Positions 4,214 through 53,813 of a stretch of DNA of 53,989 nt are shown in pieces (position 1 is the stretch's first letter; each line of letters begins with the position of its first letter). Below the pieces are notes generated by a model. That model was given only the letters and a program-made list of their open reading frames with translations. It had not been told where the DNA came from and ran no database searches. The translations under genes were made by a program, and so were the position numbers. The DNA lies in the NCBI GenBank assembly GCA_018384375.1, contig JAHAYJ010000088.1, forward strand, positions 1 through 53,989, in the 5' to 3' direction. The DNA is from Lachnospiraceae bacterium (lineage in GTDB: Bacteria; Bacillota; Clostridia; Lachnospirales; Lachnospiraceae).

Positions 4214-4497
4214 GACTTCAATGGATAAAGACCGTGATGGGAAAGAGTATTTATTAAGTAAGGTTGCAGAGAGAAGGTGGTTGGTGAAAGCCTTTGCCGA
4301 GCTGATAAAGAAGCAGTCCCTGAGTCGTGACGATGAGAAAGCAGATTATTTCGCAATAGGTGTCATCGGGTTCTCCCGTTACAGAGAAGCGGTATGACAG
4401 TACCGGCAGAGTGCAGGTTTTTCCTGAATTTAGGTGGTAACACGGATAGTAGTATTCGCCCTAAGCTTTTGAAATCAAAGGCTTAGGTTTTTTTTAT
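4214..4497 (+). ncRNA. T-box riboswitch, alanine type, upstream of alaA
   Basis: This leader senses uncharged tRNA and controls transcription of the aminotransferase gene. Stem I is recognisable: lower stem GGGA (4239-4242) pairs with TCCC (4317-4320), AGTA at 4246-4249 faces GAA at 4310-4312 (loop E motif), and TTTAT pairs with ATAAA above it. The triplet after GAA is GCA (4313-4315) followed by G, which reads as an alanine specifier. The conserved T-box AGGTGGTAACACGG is at 4432-4445 and its TGGT fits an ACCA tRNA end. A terminator with stem CCTAAGC / GCTTAGG and a T tract lies at 4459-4497. The specifier matches the predicted alanine function of the next gene. Confidence 0.9.
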
Positions 4498-4524: not shown

Positions 4525-5748
4525 ATGAAGACGTATTTAAAATCTAAGAAACTGGATTCGGTGTGCTATGATATTCGAGGGCCGGTTATGGATGAGGCAC
4601 AGCGCATGACAGCTGAGGGAATCAACATTTTAAAGCTGAATATCGGTAACCCGGCACCGTTTGGCTTCCGGGCACCGCAGGCAATCGTAGATGCCATTTC
4701 GGGTAACCTTTTAAACACAGAAGGATATTGCGATTCCAAGGGACTCTTAAGTGCCCGGGAGGCTATCTTAGGTTATTGCAGGAAAAAGGGGATTCCCTGT
4801 GAGTCGGTGAATGATATTTATACGGGGAATGGTGTCAGCGAACTGATTACAATGTCGATGCAGGCTCTGCTGAATAATGGGGATGAGGTTCTGGTACCCT
4901 CACCGGATTATCCTTTGTGGACAGCTTCTGTCACACTGGCCGGTGGGACGGCGGTTCACTATCTATGCGATGAGAGCCAGGAATGGTATCCTGACATTGA
5001 GGATATGAGAAAAAAAATCACACCTAATACAAAGGGAATTGTGGTGATCAATCCGAATAACCCTACAGGGGCAGTTTATCCCAAAGAAATTCTGGAGCAG
5101 ATCGTGCAGCTTGCAAGAGAAAATGAATTAATTTTGTTTGCTGATGAAATTTATGATAGACTGGTTATGGATGGAGTAGAACACTATTCGCTGGCATCGC
5201 TGGCACCTGACTTGATGACACTCAGCTTTAACGGGTTATCCAAGTCCCATCTGATCTGCGGATATCGTTGCGGCTGGATGTGCATTTGCGGAAATAAGTC
5301 CCAGGCAAAGGACTACATAGAAGGATTAAATTTACTTTCATCCATGCGGCTCTGTTCAAATGTGCCTGCCCAGTCACTGATTCCTAAGGCTTTGGAGTGC
5401 ATTGACTTTACGGATGAGTTGCTGGTGCCCGGAGGAAGGGTTTATGAACAGAGAGAATGCATTTGCAAACAGCTTGAGACAATTCCGGGACTGTCCTTTG
5501 TACGTCCCAAGGCAGCATTTTATCTTTTCCCGAAACTGGATATTAAGAAGTTTTCCATTACAGATGACGAGCAGTTTGCTTATGATCTGTTGAGGGAGAA
5601 GCATATTCTCATTACGCATGGTGGCGGCTTTCATTGGGAGCAGCCTGACCATTTTAGAATCGTTTATCTGCCGGATTGCAGTGTACTGGAGGAGTCTGCT
5701 AAGAAAATAGGGGATTTCCTGGAGCATTATCAGCAAAATAACAGATAG
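4525..5748 (+). CDS. alaA: Alanine transaminase, AlaA type
   Basis: The protein is a class I/II PLP aminotransferase that interconverts pyruvate plus glutamate with alanine plus 2-oxoglutarate. It closely follows the AlaA (YfbQ) pattern of E. coli: LNIGNPAPFGF, GYCDSKGLLSAR, DIYTGNGVSELI, PSPDYPLWTA, HYLCDES, INPNNPTGAVYPKE, FADEIYDR and NGLSKSH with the PLP lysine at about residue 240. The 407-residue length is normal. An AAGGAGGG site precedes the ATG. Control by an alanine-specifier T-box independently supports a role in alanine synthesis. Where AlaA has SKTYRVAGFRQGW this protein reads SKSHLICGYRCGW, a modest change next to the active-site lysine. Confidence 0.92.
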   Translation: MKTYLKSKKLDSVCYDIRGPVMDEAQRMTAEGINILKLNIGNPAPFGFRAPQAIVDAISGNLLNTEGYCDSKGLLSAREAILGYCRKKGIPCESVNDIYTGNGVSELITMSMQALLNNGDEVLVPSPDYPLWTASVTLAGGTAVHYLCDESQEWYPDIEDMRKKITPNTKGIVVINPNNPTGAVYPKEILEQIVQLARENELILFADEIYDRLVMDGVEHYSLASLAPDLMTLSFNGLSKSHLICGYRCGWMCICGNKSQAKDYIEGLNLLSSMRLCSNVPAQSLIPKALECIDFTDELLVPGGRVYEQRECICKQLETIPGLSFVRPKAAFYLFPKLDIKKFSITDDEQFAYDLLREKHILITHGGGFHWEQPDHFRIVYLPDCSVLEESAKKIGDFLEHYQQNNR

Positions 5749-5765
5749 GGAAAGGAGACATTTTT

Positions 5766-5792
5766 ATGGGTACACCCGTCGTTTGTGCATAG
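5766..5792 (+). CDS. Leader peptide 1 (8 aa, MGTPVVCA)
   Basis: An 8-codon reading frame, ATG to TAG, sits behind a strong AAAGGAG site with 8-base spacing, 17 bases after the alaA stop. The peptide MGTPVVCA shares MGTP and the final Ala-stop (GCA TAG) with a second leader at 6303-6329. The stop codon lies inside an RNA hairpin, as in ribosome-controlled attenuators. The start sites, length, first four residues and end are conserved between the two copies while the middle three residues differ. It is almost certainly translated as a regulatory leader of the gene at 5884; the signal it senses is unknown. Confidence 0.7.
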   Translation: MGTPVVCA

Positions 5793-5860
5793 CAAAAGCT
5801 ATTGCATACATAAAATAATTGAATGATGCTATAGCTTTTGCTGATCCTGAAAAATAAAAA
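5788..5860 (+). ncRNA. Attenuator-like hairpin of leader 1
   Basis: The 5' arm 5791-5807 (AGCAAAAGCTATTGCAT), which begins inside the leader stop codon, pairs with 5826-5842 (ATGCTATAGCTTTTGCT) at 16 of 17 positions. The 5' arm can instead fold locally: GCATAGC (5787-5793) with GCTATTGC around AAAA. The two folds exclude each other, so a ribosome paused at the end of MGTPVVCA could choose between them. No T tract follows the long hairpin, and the ribosome site of the next gene is about 30 bases downstream and not in the stem, so the output (transcription or translation) is unclear. Confidence 0.6.
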
Positions 5861-5883
5861 GGAAGCAAATCAGGAGGGCAATC

Positions 5884-6159
5884 ATGAGCTATAGGAGCGC
5901 AGAAGAAATTCTGCCTCTTGAAATAATTGAATTGATACAGCAGTATGTAGATGGAGAAAATATTTATATTCCCAGAAAGAGCGAGAATAGAAAAACATGG
6001 GGAGAGGGCACGCAGTTCAAAGCGGAACTGACAGCCAGAAACCGGGAAATCTATCAGGGTTATCTTGAAGGAATGAAGATGGCAGAACTGGCCGATAAAT
6101 ATTTTTTATCTGAAAAGAGCATACAGCGCATCGTATATCAGGCAAGGAAAAGTGCCTGA
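5884..6159 (+). CDS. Mor/CD3324-type helix-turn-helix protein (91 aa)
   Basis: This short DNA-binding protein has the layout of the Mor transcription activator family, and I recall clostridial members named after C. difficile CD3324. The N-terminal dimerisation part reads LEIIELIQQYVDGENIYIPR followed by KTWGEGT, and the C-terminal helix-turn-helix reads MAELADKYFLSEKSIQRIV. Start choice is supported by AGGAGGG nine bases upstream. The gene is preceded by the leader peptide and hairpin at 5766-5842 and is followed by a terminator, so it can be expressed with alaA or under leader control. Targets are unknown; the family name is from memory. Confidence 0.75.
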   Translation: MSYRSAEEILPLEIIELIQQYVDGENIYIPRKSENRKTWGEGTQFKAELTARNREIYQGYLEGMKMAELADKYFLSEKSIQRIVYQARKSA

Positions 6160-6186
6160 TGATCAGAAAACTGAATAGAGTAGCGA

Positions 6187-6221
6187 AATGAGGAGAGATT
6201 ATTCTTTCCTCATTTTTATTT
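6187..6221 (+). terminator. Intrinsic terminator after the Mor/CD3324-type gene
   Basis: AATGAGGA pairs with TCCTCATT around a 15-base loop and is followed by TTTATTT. It lies 28 bases after the stop at 6159. Confidence 0.65.
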
Positions 6222-6302
6222 GTGAAGAAAACGCGAGGTTTCGGCAGAAGTAAGTTATCTGATAGAATGAATCCGGTGAGAAGAAAGAAGGAGGAAAGAG
6301 TT

Positions 6303-6329
6303 ATGGGCACACCCCACTTGATTGCATAG
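6303..6329 (+). CDS. Leader peptide 2 (8 aa, MGTPHLIA)
   Basis: This 8-codon frame, ATG to TAG, follows a strong AAGGAGG site with 8-base spacing. MGTPHLIA matches leader 1 in length, in MGTP and in the closing GCA TAG. The nucleotide match to leader 1 continues past the stop (GCATAGC-A-AGCTATTGC with one or two changes). The upstream unit is closed by a terminator, so this leader probably has its own promoter between 6222 and 6290, although I see no convincing -35/-10 pair. It precedes the DUF1062 gene at 6433 and is not part of it. Confidence 0.7.
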   Translation: MGTPHLIA

Positions 6330-6410
6330 CAGAGGCTATTGCAATTCGGAAAATACTGATTTGACAGCGTGAAAGCTTATGCTGTCTGTAATAGTCTTTG
6401 CATACCTGAA
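6324..6410 (+). ncRNA. Attenuator-like hairpin of leader 2
   Basis: The arm 6329-6343 (GCAGAGGCTATTGCA) pairs along all 15 positions with 6387-6401 (TGTAATAGTCTTTGC) if three G-U pairs are allowed. Compared with leader 1, bases in the stem differ while pairing is kept, which is covariation evidence for a real RNA structure. A second stem, GACAGC (6363-6368) with GCTGTC (6381-6386), stacks next to the 3' arm. A local alternative fold, TTGCATAGC with GCTATTGCAA around AGAG, uses the same 5' arm and contains the leader stop codon. Confidence 0.65.
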
Positions 6411-6432
6411 AATAAACGTAAGGAGATGCAAA

Positions 6433-7017
6433 ATGGACTATTGTAAGACAATTGAATACAGAATAACACCGACAAAGGCATATACGATTATCAGGAACTG
6501 TTCCGGCTGCGGAAGAAAGGAGCATTATGTCAGCACCGGAAATTTTCGTGTTAATGCAAATGGAAGACAGCTTGATGTGTGGTTAGTTTACCAGTGTGAG
6601 AAGTGTAAACATACCTATAACCTTCCGATTTATGAGAGAGTCAGTCCGGAGAAGATCGAAGATGCCCAATATCAGGCATTTCTTGGAAATGATGCAGATA
6701 CAGCACTTCAATTTGGAACGGATCGGAATTTGTTTCTGAAGAATCGGGCTGAGATTGATATAGAACGGTTAGAATGCACGATTGAGAAGCTAAATGACGA
6801 TTGTGCGAAGCATGAAGGCGTTGAGAATTCGGAAATACAGATTATCATTCATAACCCATATATGCTTCCGATCAGAACGGACAGACTGTTGCCGGAGATT
6901 TTGCAGATGAGCAGAAGTAAGATCAGACAATTGATTAAGGACGGCAGCATTCAATATTTTGGTTCAAATCTGGCTGAGCGTACGGAAATTAAGGTGTATT
7001 ATACTGATAAGTCATAA
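6433..7017 (+). CDS. DUF1062 family protein with zinc-ribbon-like Cys pairs
   Basis: The 194-residue protein matches DUF1062: RNCSGCGRKEHYVSTGNFRV, then NANGRQLDVWLVYQC and CEKCKHTYNLPIYERV, so two Cys pairs (CSGC and CEKC) probably bind zinc near residues 24-60. The C-terminal part, LLPEILQMSRSKIRQLIKDG, resembles an S4-like RNA-binding element, a cautious reading. An AAGGAG site fixes the start at 6433; a longer start at 6379 would lie inside the leader hairpin. Biochemical function is unknown. The leader peptide in front suggests expression linked to ribosome status, and a zinc-ribbon plus RNA-binding-like end would suit a translation-related protein, but this is inference. Confidence 0.8.
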   Translation: MDYCKTIEYRITPTKAYTIIRNCSGCGRKEHYVSTGNFRVNANGRQLDVWLVYQCEKCKHTYNLPIYERVSPEKIEDAQYQAFLGNDADTALQFGTDRNLFLKNRAEIDIERLECTIEKLNDDCAKHEGVENSEIQIIIHNPYMLPIRTDRLLPEILQMSRSKIRQLIKDGSIQYFGSNLAERTEIKVYYTDKS

Positions 7018-7195: not shown

Positions 7196-7885
7196 ATGGA
7201 ACGTGAAATTGACTTAAGTGAAATATCAGATGGAAAGCTTTATACCGCGAACGATATGGTGAAGATCGGCTGCAATGACTGTGCAGGCTGCTCGGAGTGC
7301 TGCCGGATCGTAGGAGATACCATTGTCCTTGATCCGTATGATCTTTATCAACTTAAGCAGGTATCGGGAATGGGCTTTGAGGAGCTGATGAAGGATAAAA
7401 TAGAACTGCGGGTAGTGGAGGGCATTGTCCAGCCGAATTTAAAGATGAGACCGGACGGTGAGGGATGTGCCTTTCTAAGCAGTGAGGGGAGATGTACCAT
7501 TCATAACCATAGGCCGGGCTTTTGCCGGATGTTTCCCATGGGCAGAATCTATCAGGAGGATGGCTTTCGCTATTTTCTGCAGGTGCATGAATGCAGCTAT
7601 CCCAATAAATCTAAGGTCAAGCTGAAAAAATGGCTTGGCATACCGGAGCTTTCAAAATATGAGGACTATATTAATAGATGGCACCGCTTTTTGAAGCGCG
7701 TGCAGGCGTTGATTGAAAAGACAGAGAATGACACGATCATTAAGAACCTGAACATGTATCTTTTAGATCTGTTTTATGTGACTGGGTATGACACGATCAG
7801 AACAGATGGCAGATCACCTAATTTTTATGAGCAGTTTGATGAGAGACTAAAGGAAGCAGAGAATAGAGTAAAAATGTATCAGTAA
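7196..7885 (+). CDS. YkgJ family Cys-cluster (zinc/iron-chelating) protein
   Basis: The 229-residue product carries the CxxCxxCxxCC cluster of PF03692 (CNDCAGCSECC, near residue 25), followed by AFLSSEGRCTIHNHRPGFC and RMFPMGR, the second conserved block of the family. Members are thought to bind zinc or iron; their exact reaction is unsettled. I prefer the ATG at 7196 because GGAG at 7183-7186 is correctly spaced; the in-frame ATG at 7181 has no ribosome site and would add five residues. The gene stands alone before the lipoprotein gene. Nothing appears broken. Confidence 0.85.
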   Translation: MEREIDLSEISDGKLYTANDMVKIGCNDCAGCSECCRIVGDTIVLDPYDLYQLKQVSGMGFEELMKDKIELRVVEGIVQPNLKMRPDGEGCAFLSSEGRCTIHNHRPGFCRMFPMGRIYQEDGFRYFLQVHECSYPNKSKVKLKKWLGIPELSKYEDYINRWHRFLKRVQALIEKTENDTIIKNLNMYLLDLFYVTGYDTIRTDGRSPNFYEQFDERLKEAENRVKMYQ

Positions 7886-40800: not shown

Positions 40801-40816
40801 TTCAAAAAAATAGGAA

Positions 40817-41044
40817 AAGTTCTTCGGGGCAGGGTGAAATTCCCTACCGGCGGTACAGTCCGCGACCTGTGCCTGCACTGGTATGATAGAAAGTGTAGGT
40901 ATGGCTGATTTGGTGAAATTCCAAAACCGACAGTAAAGTCTGGATGAGAGAAGAATGGCACAATACAAATACAGAAGCATATGTGATGTATGATGATGTG
41001 TAGTGCATTTTATGCCCCGGATGATAGATATCCGGGGCTTTTTG
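40817..41044 (+). ncRNA. FMN riboswitch (RFN element) with terminator
   Basis: The aptamer from TCTTCGGGGCAGGGTG at about 40820 to GATGAGAGAAGA at about 40954 contains the conserved parts: AGGGTGAAATTCCCTACCGG, GGTACAGTCCGCGACC, GCTGATTTGGTGAAATTCC and ACCGACAGTAAAGTCTGGAT. The P1 ends TCTTC and GAAGA pair. A terminator GCCCCGGAT / ATCCGGGGC with TTTTT lies at 41013-41044. Binding of FMN is expected to favour termination and shut off riboflavin uptake by the gene at 41101. Confidence 0.97.
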
Positions 41045-53570: not shown

Positions 53571-53656
53571 GGAGAGGTATCGAAGTGGTCATAACGAGGC
53601 GGTCTTGAAAACCGTTTGTCCGCAAGGGCGCGTGGGTTCGAATCCCACCCTCTCCG
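53571..53656 (+). tRNA. tRNA-Ser (anticodon TGA)
   Basis: The acceptor GGAGAGG pairs with CCTCTCC and the discriminator is G. The anticodon loop CTTGAAA holds TGA at 53606-53608 between GCGGT and ACCGT. A long variable arm (TTTGTCCGCAAGGGCGC) marks a class II serine tRNA, and GTGGGTTCGAATCCCAC is the T arm. CCA is not encoded. Reads UCA and related codons. Confidence 0.98.
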
Positions 53657-53724: not shown

Positions 53725-53813
53725 GGAGAAGTACCCAAGAGGCTGAAGGGGCTCCCCTGGAAAGGGAGTAGGTCGTTAATAGCGGCGCGAGGGTTCAAAT
53801 CCCTCCTTCTCCG
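53725..53813 (+). tRNA. tRNA-Ser (anticodon GGA)
   Basis: The acceptor GGAGAAG pairs with CTTCTCC, discriminator G. The anticodon stem CTCCC / GGGAG holds loop CTGGAAA with GGA at 53759-53761. The variable arm (TAGGTCGTTAATAGCGGCGC) is long and GAGGGTTCAAATCCCTC forms the T arm. CCA is not encoded. It reads UCC and UCU. It lies 68 bases after the first tRNA-Ser, probably on the same transcript. Confidence 0.97.

Follow-up and report, generated by a model that had tools for sequence, protein, structure and literature searches.

Leaders of the erm genes (ermC, ermA, ermB) combine a short open reading frame (ORF) with mutually exclusive RNA segments, and the ribosome site of the main gene stays hidden until a ribosome stalls. 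Stalling at a start codon is a known effect of several drug classes. According to the available text of PMC12121999, toiL-topAI of Escherichia coli has a short upstream ORF (uORF) and a structure hiding a ribosome site, which is opened by stalls under several drug classes. The same text and the accessible part of PMC7157823 describe whiB7/wblC of actinobacteria as a uORF-controlled transcription regulator linked to resistance against translation-targeting drugs. Among Bacillota, the ABC-F genes vmlR and cplR are under drug-answering uORF control (available portions of PMC12121999, PMC9226507 and PMC10201436). In both cases the uORF acts on the resistance gene itself, and the stalls to which it is proposed to respond are those at the start codon (PMC12121999, same portion). 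ABC-F uORFs appear as a parallel system in the available text of PMC12421871.

We analyzed a stretch of DNA of 53,989 nucleotides from a Lachnospiraceae bacterium (the window). On the basis of its conservation and computed folding, we consider it likely that a single type of translational attenuator occurs here twice, with the wiring of the erm genes, and is read by a ribosome stalled or slowed in mid-leader.

Two leaders, their genes and the pairing segments

The window carries two eight-codon leader ORFs (positions are those of the window; leaders, pairing segments, main genes, terminator-like hairpin and promoter box all lie on the forward strand). Leader ORF 1, ATGGGTACACCCGTCGTTTGTGCATAG, spans 5766–5792 and encodes MGTPVVCA*; leader ORF 2, ATGGGCACACCCCACTTGATTGCATAG, spans 6303–6329 and encodes MGTPHLIA*. 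The ribosome site of the first is GGAAAGGAG at 5749–5757, with AAGGAG ending 8 bases before the ATG, and that of the second lies at 6288–6298, with AGGAGG at the same distance. The sequence confirms what a preliminary description of this DNA had claimed, namely two 8-codon frames with ribosome sites at 8-base spacing. When the window's own genome was scanned for ATGGGNACNCCN10GCNTAGCA with no mismatch allowed, the two leaders were the only forward matches; the control gave none.

Each leader, with its own ribosome site, precedes a main gene, as in the erm type. The first main gene (5884–6159) encodes a Mor-like transcription regulator of the CD3324 family, 91 amino acids long, with the Mor Pfam domain above cut-off (PF08765, 37 bits; cut-off 24.9) and a family score of 116 bits (NF040785; cut-off 65). 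The second (6433–7017) encodes a zinc-ribbon DUF1062 protein of 194 amino acids with four invariant cysteines (PF06353, 126 bits; cut-off 23). The genes behind the two leaders belong to unrelated families, in agreement with the earlier statement. A terminator-like hairpin with a T-run follows the CD3324 gene at 6185–6219. It is the only such site in 5600–6500 (one found, 0.6 expected), and its position between the two genes suggests that DUF1062 probably has its own promoter.

Upstream, a T-box leader (4225–4466, 118 bits) stands ahead of a PLP aminotransferase gene (4525–5748). Its stop codon and leader 1 are 17 bases apart, so transcription of a tRNA-sensing operon may continue into the CD3324 leader. 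Downstream of DUF1062, positions 7196–7885 encode a CxxCxxCC-domain protein (PF03692), and the window also holds an FMN riboswitch (40816–40959) and tRNA genes (53571–53656 and 53725–53813). No Rfam family reached its gathering score over 5700–6480.

Four segments can be assigned in each copy. Segment A1, TGCATAGC (5786–5793), contains the leader's stop codon and pairs with 5798–5806. B1 (5791–5807) pairs with C1 (5826–5850) at 16 of 17 positions, and C1 has D1 (5870–5892) as its alternative partner; D1 comprises the ribosome site, start codon and codons 2–3 of the CD3324 gene. In copy 2, segment A2, TTGCATAGC (6322–6330), likewise contains the stop codon, and B2 (6329–6343) pairs with the C2 region at 15 of 15 positions when G-U pairs are counted. 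C2 (6388–6407) may pair instead with D2 (6420–6441), which is made up of the ribosome site, start codon and codons 2–3 of DUF1062; here GACTAT matches ATAGTC in C2. We reproduced both long stems at the pair counts given in the preliminary description, and the stop codon does lie within a local stem in both copies, as it had stated. An extra hairpin occupies 6362–6386, in the loop between B2 and C2, and some other copies (L015, L028, L119) carry longer inserts at this place. Intrinsic transcription attenuation was considered and set aside, there being no T-run right after the long stem in the window copies.

Distribution and conservation of the element

Within the window's family, 43 of 299 genomes carried DUF1062 relatives. 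Of 30 such relatives, many were preceded by the leader and stems known from the window, as were the CD3324 genes adjoining some of them. A covariance model built from 22 sequences and run on 391 genomes of the class gave 23 matches in 18 genomes, and 22 of the 23 precede CD3324 or DUF1062; the other, L057 (E 0.0037, ahead of a lipoprotein-like frame), was dropped. Scanning 84,980 species genomes for the pattern yielded at least 118 stretches. Among the 87 pattern matches in 80 listed loci, 54 lie before CD3324 and 27 before DUF1062; the remaining six comprise four with no called main gene and two relics, one lacking the regulator (L091) and one with a broken regulator (L092).

In total, at least 182 pattern matches were collected, 170 of them assigned to the two families; the remaining 12 are two relics, L177 (which is a miscalled CD3324 gene), eight without a leader and one MA*. 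After one identical protein was removed, the compilation held at least 169 distinct genes, 100 for CD3324 and 69 for DUF1062. The restriction of this set to two families is by selection, and the unfiltered tests are the 22 of 23 model matches and the 81 of 87 listed pattern matches. The compiled sequences are related, so these counts are not independent events. Among the listed matches, Clostridia predominate as named hosts, Lachnospiraceae above all; there are also several Bacilli, as well as Sporomusa, two Serratia records and single records of Sphaerochaeta and Pseudodesulfovibrio. CD3324 and DUF1062 occurred together in 33 of 136 loci, which vary in size. The element is real, widely conserved and not confined to the window's locus. 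The idea of a portable attenuator holds for CD3324 and DUF1062 and does not extend beyond these two families. We found no description of the element in the titles and abstract openings of literature on DUF1062, CD3324 and leader peptides, a search that lay outside subscription journals.

Covariation supports selection on the structure. In an alignment of 22 relatives, 93.8% of cells in the long stem (B:C) were paired, compared with 87.2% in shuffles, and 16 cells carried a double change, compared with 5.3; none of 500 shuffles equaled either measure. The number of B:C pairs with a double change was four, which 163 of 500 shuffles reached. The local stem (A:B) was paired in 98.0% of cells, a value as high in two of 500 shuffles, and since seven of its nine pairs are invariant it says little by covariation. 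The earlier claim that pairing is kept despite base changes, so that the RNA structure appears selected, is therefore supported by B:C. As in the erm type, the segments pair in mutually exclusive ways that compensating changes preserve; A:B is mostly invariant.

The C–D stretch was folded alone for 163 of the 169 compiled genes, with six outside this set. Its energy fell below the shuffle mean in all 163, with z below −2 in 136, and ATAGC in C paired with GCTAT in codons 2–3 at a probability above 0.5 in 156. At the same threshold the main ribosome site was paired in all 96 CD3324 copies and in 42 of 67 DUF1062 copies. C and D were fully paired in 152 of 165 sequences (mean of 1000 shuffles, 146.8; maximum, 150), and four of the 13 incomplete cases stem from a second ATG. 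B:C was complete in 165 of 165 (shuffles, 163.0), a count biased by the choice of C as the best match to B. The genes themselves begin ATG-RGC-TAT in 86 of 100 CD3324 and 50 of 69 DUF1062 cases, so that the protein usually starts M-(S/G)-Y; we attribute this shared ATG-(A/G)GC-TAT start of two unrelated families to C:D pairing. Compensation is visible in several variants, among them window copy 2, with C as ATAGT and D as ACTAT, and L029, where B, C and D read GCTGT, ACAGT and ACTGT.

The RNA is far more constant than the leader peptide. Among the at least 169 distinct main genes, the leader is eight codons long for 81 of 100 CD3324 and 67 of 69 DUF1062 genes when, of several possible starts, the one closest to eight codons is chosen; where a single start is possible, the figures are 49 of 60 and 60 of 61. 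DUF1062 leaders center on MTTPVYFA and CD3324 leaders on MRRYVMFA. MGTP, the start that the preliminary description proposed to search for, is local only: most DUF1062 leaders begin MTTP, and CD3324 leaders most often M(R/K)(R/K)Y. The wider search and covariance model suggested in the preliminary description recovered the element in many genomes. The leader MKRYVMSA* comes first in genome G264, of the window's genus, and resembles that of the Parablautia intestinalis record RAYQ01000022.1.

At Thr2 and Pro4, DUF1062 leaders draw on every synonymous codon, four for each residue. The residue at codon 4 is Pro in 54 of 67 DUF1062 leaders of eight codons, and in CD3324 leaders of that length it is Tyr in 49 of 81; other leaders have Asp, Asn or Leu there, and there is no run of one codon. 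Hydrophobic residues are common at positions 5–7. Over codons 2–7, pN/pS was 0.94 for DUF1062 leaders and 1.09 for CD3324 leaders, values near 1 at which the peptide as a whole shows no evidence of selection. By eye, the last residue is sometimes Val or Ser with matching stem changes, one relative's leader ends in TGA, and in five of 22 credible model matches no start in frame with the TAG is evident. Conservation of Ala-TAG is partly built in, because the search patterns require GC-N-TAG or similar. A conserved arrest peptide of the TnaC kind was not found among the compiled leaders.

A candidate CD3324 circuit

A promoter box of the activator type, GAGGT-N23-TAGAAT, lies ahead of leader 2 at 6235–6268. 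The pattern ([ATG][AG]AGGT, 21–23 bases, then a −10-like hexamer; RAGGT-N22-TATAAT) was drawn from 34 DUF1062 upstream regions, and the other two sets scanned are independent of those. The box occurs before 33 of 66 DUF1062 leaders, compared with 0.85 and at most 3 in shuffles. Of 28 other ORFs that follow CD3324 on the same strand, nine have it, compared with 0.8 and again at most 3 in shuffles; four of these nine are related Bacilli GNAT loci, and the other 19 ORFs have no box. Before CD3324 leaders it occurs in three of 90, compared with 2.0 in shuffles. A box at DUF1062 and other neighbors but not at CD3324 itself suggests that CD3324 probably activates the RAGGT promoters beside it, the box before DUF1062 included.

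Genes after an attenuator-bearing CD3324 encode DUF1062, GNAT acetyltransferases, methyltransferases, an alpha/beta hydrolase and an RsgA-RNHCP protein (L217). A methyltransferase gene follows CD3324 in the Serratia, Pseudodesulfovibrio and Sphaerochaeta records (L103, L108, L089, L064), and these pairs suggest transfer between phyla. A short form of DUF1062, about 100 amino acids long and with the zinc-ribbon part only, begins at or just past the end of the CD3324 gene in L033 and L036–L039.

CD3324 was found in 34 of 245 genomes of the class and 42 of 398 of the phylum; its family model also matches in the Bacillus subtilis control genome. The covariance model matched only four of the 30 CD3324 loci examined, window included. 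Of 13 further CD3324 loci inspected by eye, two have the window's leader type and 11 another design. A second leader design, in which short ORFs accompany repeats of the GCAAAG(A/C)CT type, was noted by eye at L182, L184, L187, L195, L212, L213, L214, L216, L218, L220, L223, L227 and L230.

Some CD3324 genes with leaders other than the window's have neighbors that resemble ribosome-protection genes. Directly after them lie FusB-family EF-G-binding genes (L182, L184, L187, L213, L220, L223), ABC-F ribosomal-protection-like genes (L216 and L218, one genus) and a Vat-like gene (L230). These assignments carry NCBIfam FusB, ABC-F and Vat scores below the curated cut-offs, with the ABC-F frames cut by the locus end, and FusB Pfam domains above cut-off in the three scanned. 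In 69 of 73 CD3324 genomes (four were left out), five of ten FusB-family genes lay at most 350 bases downstream of CD3324 on the same strand; three of these five pairs come from one family, and none is in the window's genome.

The arrangement of a putative activator gene behind a uORF is there, and by analogy we read the putative regulon as a WhiB7-like ribosome-stress circuit. More tentatively, CD3324 could play in Bacillota the part that WhiB7 plays in actinobacteria: placed behind several independent ribosome-sensing leader designs, it would be the master activator of diverse ribosome-protection genes at RAGGT-box promoters. One of these could be DUF1062, as a new factor for protecting or rescuing ribosomes, under double control by CD3324 and its own attenuator. 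We place this broader proposal slightly below even chance.

Ribosome position and comparison with known attenuators

We propose that the main gene's ribosome site and start codon are hidden within D. In the absence of a ribosome, D would be closed either by C:D, together with A:B, or by A:D, together with B:C. A ribosome at the stop codon would cover A and B, so that C:D forms and the gene is off; a ribosome held at about codons 3–5 would cover A and not B, so that B:C forms and D is freed. The inducers would likely be compounds or stresses under which early elongation halts or slows down. The product of gene 1 would then be the Mor-like activator CD3324, and gene 2, DUF1062, lies behind a box that CD3324 probably uses.

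This proposal was modeled on 145 eight-codon sequences, each folded with a ribosome footprint placed as a mask on one codon after another. For DUF1062, the main ribosome site and start had a mean openness of 0.36 in free RNA and 0.55 with codons 3–4 in the P site; for CD3324 the two values were 0.24 and 0.46. With a ribosome at the start codon mean openness was only 0.41 and 0.31, respectively, and at codon 8 it was 0.40 and 0.34, slightly above free RNA. A rise of at least 0.3 at codon 4 was seen in 18 of 66 DUF1062 and 35 of 79 CD3324 sequences; a rise of 0.3 at the stop codon was seen in eight of 79 CD3324 leaders. Footprints 2 bases shorter or longer left the peak at codons 3–5 (60 sequences; openness at the stop codon 0.38, against 0.30 in free RNA). 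In 60 shuffled-spacer controls openness drifted from 0.42 to about 0.50 with no peak. Since these controls equal the openness of the real sequences (0.50) at codon 4, the distinctive trait is closure elsewhere. Window copy 1 went from 0.48 when free to 0.54 at codon 4 and 0.32 at codon 8, and copy 2 from 0.42 to 0.64 and back to 0.42. The computed opening is moderate, and it is small for window copy 1.

The underlying pairings were followed in 138 sequences. Free RNA was divided between two states, B:C together with A:D or A:B together with C:D, and D was closed in both. With a ribosome at codon 4, A was masked and B:C held, leaving 3.2 and 4.7 pairs of C:D; at the stop codon, B was masked and C:D dominated, with 12.8 and 13.8 expected pairs. 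Folded alone and short, each window copy had B:C as its minimum, whereas copy 2 with 30 bases of the gene favored A:B plus C:D; this disagreement indicates that the balance among A, B, C and D is delicate. A finishing ribosome that favors the off state and a mid-leader ribosome that favors the on state would explain both the near-fixed leader length and the stop codon inside A.

A general sensor of slow translation, responding to any stress on early elongation and not specific to antibiotics, fits the diversity of peptides within a near-fixed geometry. The available text of PMC12121999 also reports that toiL answers five drug classes and that whiB7 answers starvation as well. Here the FusB-, ABC-F- and Vat-like neighbors of other CD3324 members point instead to ribosome-directed compounds, and we regard the general sensor as a serious though rather unlikely alternative.

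Peptide-specific arrest at the stop codon had been raised in the preliminary description. Here the octapeptide would block termination as TnaC or MsrDL does, and the stalled ribosome would induce the gene. Leaders of mostly eight codons ending within A and the frequent hydrophobic residues at positions 5–7 would suit it, and erythromycin-dependent termination stalls are known elsewhere (PMC12121999, available text). We nevertheless judge it improbable. Masking the stop codon restores C:D and leaves openness below the mid-leader value, which argues against a stop-codon stall, and the variable peptide, its pN/pS near 1, the terminal Val or Ser and the TGA stop all speak against a specific arrest sequence.

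An amino-acid starvation attenuator, with scarce prolyl- or tyrosyl-tRNA holding the ribosome at codon 4, would place the stall where masking opens the site and where Pro, in all four codons, and Tyr predominate; it is very unlikely, given that the two leaders usually differ in this residue, that Asp, Asn and Leu also occur and that no codon is repeated in a run. Least likely is a metabolite- or protein-binding RNA with an incidental short ORF, which the strong RNA conservation, the five matches lacking an obvious start and the missing sign of peptide selection would allow, but which the leader's ribosome site and length, the use of all four Thr2 and Pro4 codons in DUF1062 leaders and the lack of an Rfam match disfavor.

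In our reading, ribosomes that stall or slow down midway through the leader probably operate the attenuator, which would feed into a probable activator circuit tied to ribosome protection. The claim of a ribosome-sensing RNA attenuator is supported, given its conservation, its selected structure and its occurrence before two unrelated families in many genomes; we infer the stalling, the induction, the binding of the box by CD3324 and the response of the regulon to ribosome-targeting compounds. If this is true, an inducible response to such compounds is present in many gut and soil bacteria, and the regulator family and promoter box can reveal new protection genes (DUF1062, GNATs, methylases, the RsgA-RNHCP protein). 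The element would also be a clean case in which ribosome geometry sets leader length and the opening codons of two unrelated proteins are imposed by RNA structure.

The element shares the short leader ORF and exclusive segments of the erm attenuators, and its main ribosome site would, as computed, be hidden like theirs (cf. the available parts of PMC8274638 and PMC11264731). It differs in that the leader ends inside segment A, so that a terminating ribosome would itself favor the off state; in that segment D extends into codons 2–3; and in that the main genes, by profile, are a transcription regulator and DUF1062 rather than an rRNA methylase. The likeness to toiL-topAI, in short uORF and in the predicted hiding of the ribosome site and opening by stalls, is one of description and not of sequence, and genes and host are different. 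A stall anywhere is proposed to open toiL (PMC12121999, available text), whereas opening here is predicted mainly in mid-leader. Compared with the uORFs of vmlR and cplR, a regulator and a second gene are gated here, and a start-codon stall opens little in folding. CD3324 also differs from the Mor and C activators of phage Mu, being 91 residues long and leader-controlled, and one query of a phage collection gave no match. In contrast to whiB7, the regulator is a Mor-like helix-turn-helix protein and not a WhiB iron-sulfur protein, its control is by a translational attenuator, the promoters are of the RAGGT-N22-TATAAT type and the hosts are mainly Bacillota. The element is best read as a translational attenuator of a known kind, with new wiring and new clients.
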